Source: a virus. From it: 64,000 nt of DNA. Under the pieces are notes generated by a model. That model was given only the letters and a program-made list of their open reading frames with translations. It was not told where the DNA came from and did no database searches. The translations under genes and the position numbers were made by a program. The stretch's first letter is position 1. The number at the start of each line of letters is the position of its first letter. This document shows, piece after piece, positions 46,795 through 50,780 of this stretch. The DNA lies in the IMG/VR virus record IMGVR_UViG_3300023174_000056, positions 104,145 through 168,144 of that record; one strand, 5' to 3'.

Positions 46795-47349
46795 CTAAAA
46801 ATTTAAATTATTATTGGTATATTTAGTGACAAAATCGTTCATTATAATGCTACCAGCAACGGCAGCATTTAAAGAGCGTACAGAGCCATACTGCTGAATA
46901 AACACAAATCTATCACAAATTTCTATCGCTTCTTGTGTAAGTCCGACGCCTTCTTCGCCAAGAAGAAAAAGGACAGGCTTAGTATATTCAATCCTATCCA
47001 AACGGATAGCACCAGCAATAGTATTTTCAACACCAACAATTTCGTATTTTTCCTTCAACTCTAAAAGTTGTTCGTGTTTTTTTAGATGTATTACATCCGT
47101 ATAATGGTGTGTGCCAACTGTGCCTCTACGGTCATAGTGTTTATTGCCAATGTAATAAACTTCTTTCGCATTAAAACCATTTGCTGATCTTATCACAGAT
47201 GATAAATTAAAATCACCAAGAAGATTCTCCATCGCAACTGCGTAAGGAAAGGCTTTAGACTGGAGATCTTTTTTAATTAATTCTGTTGTCCACTTAGTCA
47301 AACGATCATACTTGTACTTGTCTGAAATGTTACGGTTGTCTGTGTCCAT
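46795..47349 (-). CDS. SpoU/TrmH-family RNA 2'-O-methyltransferase, 184 aa
   Basis: Three SpoU motifs are present: NLSSVIRSANGF (motif 1 near residue 50), LFLLGEEGVGLT (motif 2 near 131) and VRSLNAAVAGSIIM (motif 3 near 160), making the trefoil-knotted SAM site. It methylates a ribose in tRNA or rRNA. The family contains TrmH, TrmL, RlmB and the thiostrepton-resistance enzyme TsnR acting on A1067 of 23S rRNA. The gene has its own promoter with the predicted +1 on the A of the ATG. The substrate cannot be told from the sequence. Confidence 0.87.
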   Translation of the reverse strand: MDTDNRNISDKYKYDRLTKWTTELIKKDLQSKAFPYAVAMENLLGDFNLSSVIRSANGFNAKEVYYIGNKHYDRRGTVGTHHYTDVIHLKKHEQLLELKEKYEIVGVENTIAGAIRLDRIEYTKPVLFLLGEEGVGLTQEAIEICDRFVFIQQYGSVRSLNAAVAGSIIMNDFVTKYTNNNLNF

Positions 47350-49074: not shown

Positions 49075-49686
49075 CTATTCAATAATTTTGTCTACAAGAC
49101 CATACTTGAGACAAGTTTTAGCATCAAAATATATATCACGTTTCAAGATATCTTTTAAGGTGTTTTTTGGAATTTTTGTATATTGACCATAAATTTCATA
49201 AATTTTATCCATAAAAACATTGCAATTTTGCATATCATCTTTCATGTCTTCAAATTTACCCCACATACCACCTGATAATTGGTGAATTAGCATAAAAGAA
49301 TTTTTTGTGATACTTCTCTTTGGAGCCACAACACTTATAATAGTTCCAGCGCTGGCAGCACTGCCTTCAACGATAGAATGCACTGGGGCGTTGCTATTAC
49401 GAATTACATCAACAGCAGCAAAACAATCAAGTAGAGAACCGCCTGGACTATTGATGTAAAGTTTAATGTCTGGCGGTGTGGGCCATTCAAAATGATTTTG
49501 AACAAAAATCAATTCTTTGCTTACACTACGCAATTGTTTATTAAGGTTTAAAATTGATTTCTTAGTAACAGAAGAGTAAAAATAGATTGAATTATCTACT
49601 GTTTCAATTTCATTTAAATCTTCATCATCTTCGTCTGCGGACGGTTTTGTGGCTAAATAAAAAGCATTTTTTGGTAATTTAGTCAT
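49075..49686 (-). CDS. ClpP-like serine peptidase, 203 aa
   Basis: ClpP fold with all catalytic residues: INSPGGSLLDCFAAVD, GSAASAGT (Ser near residue 110), FMLIHQLSGGMWG (His near 135) and LKYGLVDKI (Asp near 199). The N-terminal 40 residues, rich in Asp/Glu (ADEDDEDLNEIE), replace the usual propeptide. Possible roles are a ClpXP-type chamber with host ClpX or ClpA, or prohead maturation; head genes are not in view here, but a tmRNA gene is less than 1 kb away. It has its own promoter. Confidence 0.87.
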   Translation of the reverse strand: MTKLPKNAFYLATKPSADEDDEDLNEIETVDNSIYFYSSVTKKSILNLNKQLRSVSKELIFVQNHFEWPTPPDIKLYINSPGGSLLDCFAAVDVIRNSNAPVHSIVEGSAASAGTIISVVAPKRSITKNSFMLIHQLSGGMWGKFEDMKDDMQNCNVFMDKIYEIYGQYTKIPKNTLKDILKRDIYFDAKTCLKYGLVDKIIE

Positions 49687-49700
49687 GGCAAGGCTCCAAT

Positions 49701-49967
49701 CTATGCCTTCATCTTACCCTTCTTATTTTTGCTTGTCAAGAGCTTTTCTTCAATTTCCTCAAGAGCAGCTTTTAATGATGGATCTACACGGCTTTTTACA
49801 ACATACTGTTGACCACCTACACCTGATCGCTTAATTTTAACTTGATAAGTACCAGTCTTGTCTTGCGCTTTTACAGACTTCCGAAACGTATCCGCTTCTT
49901 CAAACGAAGCAAAATAACGTTCATTTTTCCAAGGCTCACCTTGAACTTGCTTTGTTGTCTCTTCCAT
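49701..49967 (-). CDS. Conserved-looking small protein, 88 aa
   Basis: Begun at the second ATG (49967, MEETTKQVQGEPWKNERYFA), which has AAGGAGG at proper distance; the first ATG at 49988 would place that ribosome site inside the gene. The central ERYFASFEEADTFRKSVK and GTYQVKIKRSG... QQYVVKSR look like a small alpha/beta domain, and the end is Lys-rich. It is not SmpB by sequence. Expressed from its own promoter between the ncRNA and clpP-like genes. Confidence 0.78.
   Translation of the reverse strand: MEETTKQVQGEPWKNERYFASFEEADTFRKSVKAQDKTGTYQVKIKRSGVGGQQYVVKSRVDPSLKAALEEIEEKLLTSKNKKGKMKA
49711..49739 (-). promoter_or_regulatory. sigma70 promoter for the ClpP-like gene
   Basis: Minus strand TTGACA (49739-49734), 17-nt spacer, TAAGAT (49716-49711). 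Leader of about 18 nt carrying TTGGAG before the ATG at 49686. It lies within the 3' end of the 88-aa gene. Confidence 0.78.
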
Positions 49968-50007
49968 TTTCCTACCCTCCTTCGTCATTCCAGACGGCTA
50001 TAAGAAC

Positions 50008-50036: not shown

Positions 50037-50042
50037 GAACAA

Positions 50043-50060
50043 AATAACAGGCGTGTTATT
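50043..50060 (-). terminator. Hairpin terminator of the GAC-like RNA
   Basis: AATAACA-CGCC-TGTTATT on the minus strand gives a 7-bp stem followed by TTGTTCTTT. AT-rich and modest in strength, but placed correctly at the end of the RNA. Confidence 0.6.
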
Positions 50061-50306
50061 ACACTAAAGCGGAATCTCATTGCATCGCAGAATTCACCTT
50101 TTTATCGGTTACTCCACGTCTTCTGGATCTCCACGCCGATACGTTTCTCCTATTCCCTAACCACCCCGACCTATGATAGATTGCGCCTTACCTAATACGA
50201 GGATCTTATGGAGATCGCTCAAATATTACACTTAGTTATTTAAGGGTTTCGTATAATATTATTCGGGCTTTTAGCATAGACGCCTTTTCACAAGATTTCT
50301 ATCTGC

Positions 50307-50364
50307 ACTAGTGGATTTTGCCGCACTCTTTAAAAGATGGCTACCTTTAAGCCAACTTCCCGAT
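50307..50364 (-). other. GTPase-associated-centre-like domain (helices 42-44 pattern)
   Basis: The runs GUUGGCUUA, GUAGCCAUC and UUUAAAGAGUGCG correspond in order and spacing to 23S rRNA. Outer helix pairs A-U, U-G, G-U and G-C are kept, as is the G-A closing mismatch; one C-A mismatch is seen. The hairpin that in rRNA holds A1095 reads GCGGCAAAAUCC and is not conserved. Confidence 0.72.
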
Positions 50365-50383
50365 TATTTTGTTCGTAGATACA

Positions 50384-50426
50384 AGTATGCCACAGAGACT
50401 CGGTGTTGTCAAGTCTTCTGTGGCAT
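50384..50426 (-). promoter_or_regulatory. Promoter embedded in an inverted repeat (GAC-like RNA promoter)
   Basis: Minus strand TTGACA (50412-50407), 17-nt spacer, CATACT (50389-50384) with an upstream TG. A 9-bp inverted repeat ATGCCACAG / CTGTGGCAT (50387-50395 and 50418-50426) surrounds the -35 box, and its right arm meets the -10 box. Inside, AGACT/AGTCT extends the hairpin. It begins 5 nt after the tmRNA CCA end. Confidence 0.78.
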
Positions 50427-50431
50427 TTAGT

Positions 50432-50721
50432 TGGTGGAGGATTTGGGTATCGAACCCAAGTCTTACAGTCTTTTGTACAAAGTCATTCACAGGATTAGTA
50501 GAGTCGTCTACACGTATTACATTTTATTACAGTCTATTACAATTTGCAACTTTCTGTTTCTAGGCAGTTGCCGCCCAAGAATTACGCTGCTAGAGCGTAG
50601 GATTCAAACTCAACGTCTTCGTTGGCTTTTATTGTTTTGTAACATTTATTAGAGTCTGTTGTGTTACGCAGACTTCCCGCACTTTATATTTCTCTACCGT
50701 AATCGAATCCAGTTATCCCCC
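50432..50721 (-). ncRNA. ssrA: tmRNA (ssrA), tag ANEDVEFESYALAA
   Basis: A complete one-piece tmRNA of 290 nt. 5' GGGGGAT pairs with 3' ATCCTCC (with the G3-U pair for alanyl-tRNA synthetase), followed by A and encoded CCA. The 5' part has the hallmark CTGGATTCGA. The T arm is TTGGG-TTCGATA-CCCAA, and TTACGGT pairs with ACTGTAA as the long P2 helix. A hairpin or pseudoknot (AGTCTG/CAGACT) precedes the tag frame, which starts at GCC (50626) and ends TAA (50582). The tag ends in YALAA like bacterial ssrA tags. Shorter than the 363 nt of E. coli. It rescues stalled ribosomes and marks products for ClpXP-type proteases. Confidence 0.95.
50582..50626 (-). other. Tag-peptide reading frame inside the tmRNA
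   Basis: Fourteen codons plus TAA: ANEDVEFESYALAA. A resume GCC (Ala) codon follows an A-rich stretch (AACAATAAAA), as in known tmRNAs. The last residues ALAA are the standard ClpX/ClpA degradation signal; the acidic middle (EDVEFE) is longer than in E. coli. Confidence 0.95.
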
Positions 50722-50738: not shown

Positions 50739-50780
50739 AAGATACCACAGGTGCAAGCTCTTGTCAAGACACCTGTGGTA
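50739..50780 (-). promoter_or_regulatory. Promoter/terminator composite upstream of tmRNA
   Basis: Minus strand TTGACA (50767-50762), 17-nt spacer, TATCTT (50744-50739). An 11-bp perfect inverted repeat TACCACAGGTG / CACCTGTGGTA (50743-50753, 50770-50780) encloses the -35 box, and its arm abuts the -10. Read as RNA from the endolysin gene, the same hairpin is followed by ATCTTTTTATTT, a Rho-independent terminator. It thus ends one transcript and starts the tmRNA. Confidence 0.83.

Follow-up and report, generated by a model that had tools for sequence, protein, structure and literature searches.

The window analysed here, a stretch of 64,000 nucleotides, belongs to a 168-kb virus record that carries endolysin, PhoH-like and glycosyltransferase genes and also a tRNA-Gly. 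Downstream of a phage tmRNA gene, on the minus strand, lies an RNA of ~340 nt (about 338; 50374-50037) that imitates the GTPase-associated centre (GAC) of 23S rRNA. It is a free-standing phage RNA gene and one of a phage-associated family. The features of the locus are listed below, with base names following 23S rRNA.

50432-50721, minus strand: phage tmRNA gene, tag ANEDVEFESYALAA (ARAGORN; Rfam tmRNA, 73.9 bits)
50384-50412, minus strand: predicted sigma-70 promoter TTGACA-17-CATACT with extended -10 (TGG) (consensus scan, 10/12)
50037-50374, minus strand: complete GAC-mimic RNA, closing helix to closing helix (134-member family alignment; model R1)
50360-50374, minus strand: 5' strand of the closing helix at the position of 23S helix 42 (H42; G1055 = 50360), pairing at 14/15 positions with 50037-50051 (minimum-free-energy fold)
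50334-50358, minus strand: hairpin of helix 43 (H43; 23S 1057-1081), U1072 = 50343, A1067 = 50348 (Rfam LSU match)
50325-50333, minus strand: 23S 1082-1090 (UUAAAGAGU), including 1082:1086 and A1088, which contacts U1060 (1082:1086 covariation)
50069-50324, minus strand: 256-nt insert between 23S 1090 and 1091, closing stem GCGG (50324-50321)/CCGC (50072-50069) (stem paired in the family; no rRNA similarity)
50307-50324, minus strand: 3' end of a motif described earlier, now the start of the insert and not the homologue of 23S 1091-1108 (family alignment)
50065-50068, minus strand: linker UUUA, UUUG in most members (the two tabulated linker U positions are U in 133/134 members)
50053-50064, minus strand: end loop of helix 44 (H44), GUGUAAUAACAC (23S 1091-1102), U1092 = 50063, A1095 = 50060, A1099 = 50056 (triple U:(U-A))
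50037-50051, minus strand: 3' strand of the closing helix (C1104 = 50051), pairing with 50374-50360
49075-49686, minus strand: phage-encoded Clp-family serine protease (ClpP-like), downstream of the RNA
46795-47349, minus strand: SpoU-family RNA 2'-O-methyltransferase, closest to TrmH (tRNA Gm18)

The predicted promoter puts the transcript start near 50377, and the same promoter arrangement precedes the tmRNA gene (50767-50739). In both places, upstream of the tmRNA (50739-50767) and of the GAC-mimic RNA (50384-50412), the promoter is held within a hairpin CCACAG...CTGTGG on the minus strand; this cassette is perhaps terminator and promoter at once. Single-sequence folding, which is weak evidence, gave a thermodynamic fold of the whole RNA only weakly better than that of shuffled sequence (z -1.8). 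A search with the family model described below found a single copy of the RNA in this phage. The RNA does not qualify as a ribosomal-protein leader, as it does not precede a ribosomal protein gene; Pfam gave no match for the ORF that follows (49701-49988), and no uL11 RNA-binding domain is encoded in the phage record. A RelA/SpoT gene was likewise absent from the record.

The earlier note on this DNA had described 50364-50307 (-) as an ungapped, contiguous 58-nt likeness of E. coli 23S 1051-1108. Its count of 41/58 identities is exact; the second-best placement of the same 58-mer within the window yields 30/58, and the top value among other, sampled 23S 58-mers is 33/58. The alignment to large-subunit rRNA that it had called for (Rfam LSU_rRNA_bacteria, RF02541) gives a hit at 50370-50304(-) of 25.2 bits (E 7e-6), short of the gathering score of 50, and the compensated helix 43 pair it had noticed is indeed there, A1058-U1080 in the window RNA vs U-A in E. 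coli. The contiguity of the copy did not survive: 50364-50325 does correspond to 23S 1051-1090, but 50324-50307 is, by the family alignment, the start of a large insert that had been overlooked. The true counterpart of 23S 1091-1108 is 50064-50047 (-), 260 nt further downstream, so that the GAC fold is split by 256 nt of non-rRNA sequence. Against 23S 1091-1108 the insert start has 11/18 identities and the true piece 12/18, and the split alignment with 23S 1051-1108 as a whole reaches 42/58. Short matches had raised the suspicion that the 260 nt downstream continue the homology into 23S domain II (H44-H46); this was rejected, as inserts score no better than shuffled ones against the E. coli rrn operon, and as the true H44 piece stands at the 3' end of the RNA. 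That the surroundings are not rRNA is borne out, since the inserts score against rRNA no better than shuffled inserts.

Comparison of phage records gave matches in Aeromonas phage 4_4572, Pseudomonas phages Milchi, Astolliot, pf16 and UNO-G1W1, Acinetobacter ME3 and Vibrio 2.275, all intergenic, mostly unannotated and mostly amid tRNA genes. When aligned, they leave rRNA after 23S 1090, pass through a variable insert and resume with UUUGGCGUAAUAGCACAC, which corresponds to GCGUAAUAGCUCAC (23S 1091-1104); the second strand of the closing helix comes next. For an unbiased two-part test, viral contigs were scanned with the 18-nt 3' piece alone, which gave at least 120 stretches. Among the matches listed, 111 occurrences fell in new loci, and ~92 of them were preceded on the same strand by the H43 motif (a score of 23/32 or higher), whereas downstream and antisense controls (~222 stretches) had a maximum H43 score of 22, with one exception. 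The 19 listed occurrences without an upstream H43 are close to the number expected by chance when so large a collection is scanned with such a pattern (~14 by our own estimate). The same 18-nt pattern occurred in 84,980 bacterial and archaeal genomes in 43 stretches only, 17 with H43 upstream. In two isolates, Flintibacter muris and strain D16-76, copies of the RNA lie amid phage-like genes, e.g. DNA methylases. Near the RNA of D16-76 a large protein (L268 2070-3593 (+)) resembles a vWA/TROVE-type protein, and near that of F. muris a protein is polynucleotide kinase/phosphatase-like (L264 2522-4714 (+)).

A covariance model (R1), built from 19 short-insert members and without the window, finds the window RNA at 50255-50370(-) with 51.4 bits (E 3e-11) and its 3' half only weakly (50040-50159(-), 13.6 bits). 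Members from the cultured phages Milchi, Astolliot, pf16, UNO-G1W1, XacN1, GAP32, CBB, Kaldavass, BF, SNUABM_12 and XbC2 score 72-92 bits, and genuine 23S ~48-53 bits. A search of 80 genomes with R1 listed 43 matches, all of 71-72 nt, as expected of ordinary 23S without insert. Real bacterial 23S rRNA also occurs in or as 'phage' records (OR84xxxx/OR85xxxx, PQ800148, CAKLQF/CAKLQH and MZ092003, here L008), as contamination or, for MZ092003, as a host segment. The family comprises >130 distinct members, including cultured phages of Acinetobacter, Pseudomonas, Cronobacter, Pectobacterium, Serratia, Erwinia, Aeromonas, Vibrio and Xanthomonas. The jumbo phages GAP32, CBB, Kaldavass, BF, SNUABM_12 and XbC2 (L058-L063) share the intergenic site of the RNA; in published jumbo-phage genomes this site appears as conserved 'empty' DNA, a few hundred bases long.

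Ten related RNA loci also have a tmRNA gene, and 45% of members have a tRNA or tmRNA no more than 100 nt away from the RNA, vs 24% for random places in the same loci; for tRNA/tmRNA genes within 1 kb of the RNA, location on the same strand was 50/50. Except for HNH endonucleases, no protein families recur beside the family RNAs, and no ribosomal-protein genes recur among their neighbours. Rfam 15 holds no family for the GAC-mimic RNA, the window RNA matching LSU rRNA only and below threshold, and 14 related loci gave tRNA and tmRNA genes only at the curated score. A phage GAC-like RNA was not found in the literature either, although the search covered open-licence papers only and a subscription paper or preprint may have been missed. 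Within these limits, we know of no earlier description of a viral RNA reproducing the tertiary fold of a functional centre of the ribosome.

For a position-by-position comparison we used 134 non-redundant members, <75% identical at their ends, all of which have the closing helix, H43, the insert site, the UUU linker and the H44 loop in common. The H42 pairs from 1055:1104 to 1049:1110 are formed in 81-99% of the family vs 41-95% after shuffling, and in slid registers pairing falls to about 34-46%. The start of H42 at G1055-C1104 and the H43 stem pairs 1057-1059:1079-1081 and 1062-1064:1074-1076 are present in the window and paired in 81-100% of the 134 members, with compensatory changes; 1058:1080 is paired in 100% vs 45% shuffled, and A-U, G-C and U-A are all common there. 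The closing helix is regular, with 7-9 pairs and no conserved sequence, and the kinked, L10-binding part of H42 is absent. Standard pairs occupy 1082:1086 in 131/134 members (U-A 104, C-G 15, A-U 12), while U1060-A1088 and G1071:(G1091-C1100) each occur in 133/134. Pairs 1-3 of the insert stem are formed in 98, 96 and 93% of the family vs 55, 58 and 42% after shuffling. Over 23 pairs in the 19 short-insert members, 95.4% are formed vs 68.5% shuffled and 36-62% in slid registers, with 128 changes on both sides vs 42 shuffled. The earlier note would have given up its case if related phages had lost H42/H43 pairing; instead, pairing is kept through compensatory change. Its core claim, an undescribed RNA in a phage imitating the GAC, is thus supported by the LSU alignment, the homologous phage loci and covariation.

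Within the family, variation is least restricted at bases 1061 and 1067. At 1061 U, A, G and C all occur, with A in 26% of members; a U1061A variant has been used in GAC folding work (PMC10161774). At 1067, 71% of the 134 members have A, 33 (25%) G and 6 C or U, vs A in 66/67 GAC sequences sampled from bacterial genomes. A1095 is kept in 128/134 members (96%), and the window RNA has both A1067 and A1095.

In 23S rRNA, the 1092-1099 pair and base 1072 together make up a base triple, and GAC crystallography and covariation have established C:(C-G) and U:(U-A) as isosteric. In our search patterns some letters of H43 or of the 3' piece were constrained, but each of 1072, 1092 and 1099 could vary independently (C or U, A or G). 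Across the 134 members the triple reads C/C-G in 91, U/U-A in 40 (30%), U/U-G in 2 and C/U-A in 1, and the window has U/U-A. The RNAs of L060 and L207, 95% identical over their whole length, differ at all three triple bases as well as at both bases of 1082:1086 and of the H42 pair 1054:1105. Both triple states are present among class B inserts (8 and 7), so the switch happened more than once. Host 23S, where sampled, is almost all C:(C-G) and without insert, with C/C-G in 61/67 bacterial-genome GAC sequences; we believe that a few phage-type copies (loci among L285-L291) explain the exceptions, which were not checked one by one. The switching of the triple as a unit is the strongest evidence, albeit from sequence comparison, that the RNA forms the GAC fold. 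Since sampled host 23S is almost uniformly C/C-G and lacks the insert, this switching implies that selection maintains the three-dimensional GAC fold in the phage RNAs. The alignment shows that the RNA keeps the secondary structure of the 23S GAC and, for the tertiary fold, its covariation signature (H42 register, H43, 1060-1088, 1072:(1092-1099) and the 1095 loop). The U:(U-A) triple, rare in sampled 23S, also amounts to a natural experiment on rRNA tertiary structure.

These data bear on the simplest alternative, a functionless fragment captured from host 23S or plain rRNA contamination. The strong likeness of the 5' 40 nt to bacterial 23S could suggest such an origin, as could the true 23S contaminants in the phage collection (L008 and several short unannotated records). 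However, compensatory changes occur at nearly every helix and at the tertiary triple, the insert site and linker are shared by the family and absent from 23S, and synteny is conserved in GAP32, CBB, BF and XbC2. Covariation refutes this explanation, and we regard it as practically untenable.

A second feature of the family is the insert, which every member carries at the same site in H44 with a length of 32-365 nt. The inserts are diverse and belong to unrelated structural classes; one recurring type has GGCACCCCGKAAMYGGUAAGGCUGAA near its 3' end (23 members), another is marked by CAGGGGAAGGACAAG and GACCCUUAGAGCA (about 15 members), and consensus folding revealed local hairpins only. In Milchi (L003 3670-3975) and, at the same place, in Astolliot (L009), a second, diverged copy of the RNA with another insert class lies directly upstream in tandem, and this second copy again reads U1072, U1092 and A1099. 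One contig (L152) has two copies, at (-) 291-509 and 541-762 of its reverse strand. Such an arrangement could indicate that the GAC fold is a mere handle by which uL11, on or off the ribosome, tethers the RNA, while the variable insert works on a different target in each phage-host pair. The constant presence and single site of inserts so unlike in length and structure fit this idea, and so do the copies with different insert classes in Milchi and Astolliot and the pair in L152. On the other hand, no target has been identified for the inserts, which resemble rRNA no more than shuffled sequence does and, in the 14 loci checked, reach the gathering score of no Rfam family. Ribosomal uL11, moreover, already holds the rRNA GAC, so that tethering would need exchange or free uL11. 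We therefore consider the handle unlikely, without dismissing it.

The isolated 58-nt GAC folds with Mg2+ and is bound and stabilised by uL11 (PMC10161774). The elements required for this fold are conserved in the phage RNAs. We propose that the fold is kept for binding of host uL11 and that the RNA captures this protein, with the insert as a second domain; uL11 binding, expression and function are inferred without binding data, and we give the proposal an even chance of being correct. The GAC fold would be recognised by host uL11, the protein that recognises the same fold in rRNA, and RNA made during infection would take hold of uL11 molecules that are free, newly synthesised or in exchange. 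The insert might add bulk as a second domain or recruit another, host-specific partner. The outcome would be interference at the base of the ribosomal stalk, e.g. blunted RelA activation or altered factor traffic in phage translation. Relaxed relC ribosomes lack uL11, which makes the blunting of RelA a reasonable consequence.

The exposed 1067 and 1095 loops could alternatively serve as a decoy for translation factors, the tRNA elbow, RelA or thiopeptides. In the RelA complex A1067 stacks on the tRNA elbow, and it is the key thiostrepton determinant (PMC5829649). The retention of A1095 in nearly all members is compatible with a decoy. In addition, PMC5829649 refers to work on the binding of EF-G to oligonucleotides mimicking the GAC domain (Munishkin and Wool, 1997). 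Yet the contact base 1067 is freer than the fold, in contrast to its near invariance in bacterial GACs. Since 1067 is G in a quarter of the members, a thiopeptide sponge or A1067-dependent contacts fit less well, and since the L10-binding part of H42 is not kept, we do not favour a full mimic of the stalk. A decoy of this kind thus appears improbable, and the variation at 1067 together with the plain H42 leads us to prefer uL11 capture to a decoy for factors or antibiotics.

By analogy with phage tRNAs that counter tRNA-cutting defences, the RNA might instead be bait for a host defence or modification enzyme recognising the GAC, such as an rRNA-cutting toxin or a methyltransferase. Its frequent location within phage tRNA arrays would suit such a role, the variable insert and 1067 loop could mirror an arms race, and the window itself encodes a SpoU-family methyltransferase (46795-47349). 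This enzyme, however, is closest to TrmH, a tRNA enzyme, for which reason it was also rejected as a candidate A1067 methylase, and no such protein family recurs beside the RNA. No defence system with the GAC as its cutting site is known to us, and we hold the bait hypothesis to be very doubtful.

Among the proposed roles, uL11 capture fits best and is the most likely, although it is inferred and not demonstrated. A pure uL11 sponge would need no structured insert of 32-365 nt in every member, and capture may be only half of the function. Other points against the proposal are the lack of any recurring protein neighbour beyond HNH endonucleases, the lack of uL11 and RelA/SpoT genes in the phage record and the weak thermodynamic fold of the window RNA. 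The findings suggest that phages imitate part of the ribosome in order to capture the host translation machinery or manipulate it. Tentatively, and with slightly less than even confidence, we envisage widespread, undescribed trans-acting phage RNAs in which an extra-ribosomal uL11-binding centre would be the platform for exchangeable effector domains, reprogramming translation or the stringent response by RNA and not by protein. This would be a possible route for large phages with big tRNA arrays to act on host translation. The family is readily testable, the small GAC fold and uL11 having long served as classic systems in vitro.

Several known RNAs invite comparison. GOLLD and ROOL are structured RNAs of large size, frequently associated with phages and tRNA genes; neither had an Rfam match in the window or in 14 related loci, and to our knowledge no GAC occurs within them. 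The T4 stable RNAs C and D (species 1 and 2), whose role is unknown, resemble the present RNA in lying beside a phage tRNA cluster, but were rejected as relatives, as inspection revealed no H43 motif or H44 piece and R1 has no match at the T4 locus. Ribosomal-protein leaders (L1, L10, L20, S15) are extra-ribosomal RNAs that imitate an rRNA site and act as cis-regulators in bacterial mRNAs of the same protein. The phage RNA likewise imitates a protein site of rRNA outside the ribosome; unlike the leaders, it is a separate phage gene without an adjoining ribosomal protein gene, and the site imitated is that of uL11. The closest counterpart is the GAC of 23S rRNA itself (H42-H44, RF02541 positions ~1086-1152), with which the phage RNAs share the three-way junction, H43 with the 1067 loop, H44 with the 1095 loop, U1060-A1088, 1082:1086, the triple 1072:(1092-1099) and the G1055-C1104 register. 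In contrast to it, they stand alone, have a plain and variable H42, an insert of 32-365 nt at 1090/1091 and a UUU linker, carry the U:(U-A) triple in 30% and A or G at 1067, and pair U1090 with A1101, whereas most sampled 23S have U at 1101. With its non-contiguous H44 and its non-rRNA flanks, the window RNA is a mimic of the GAC and not 23S rRNA.
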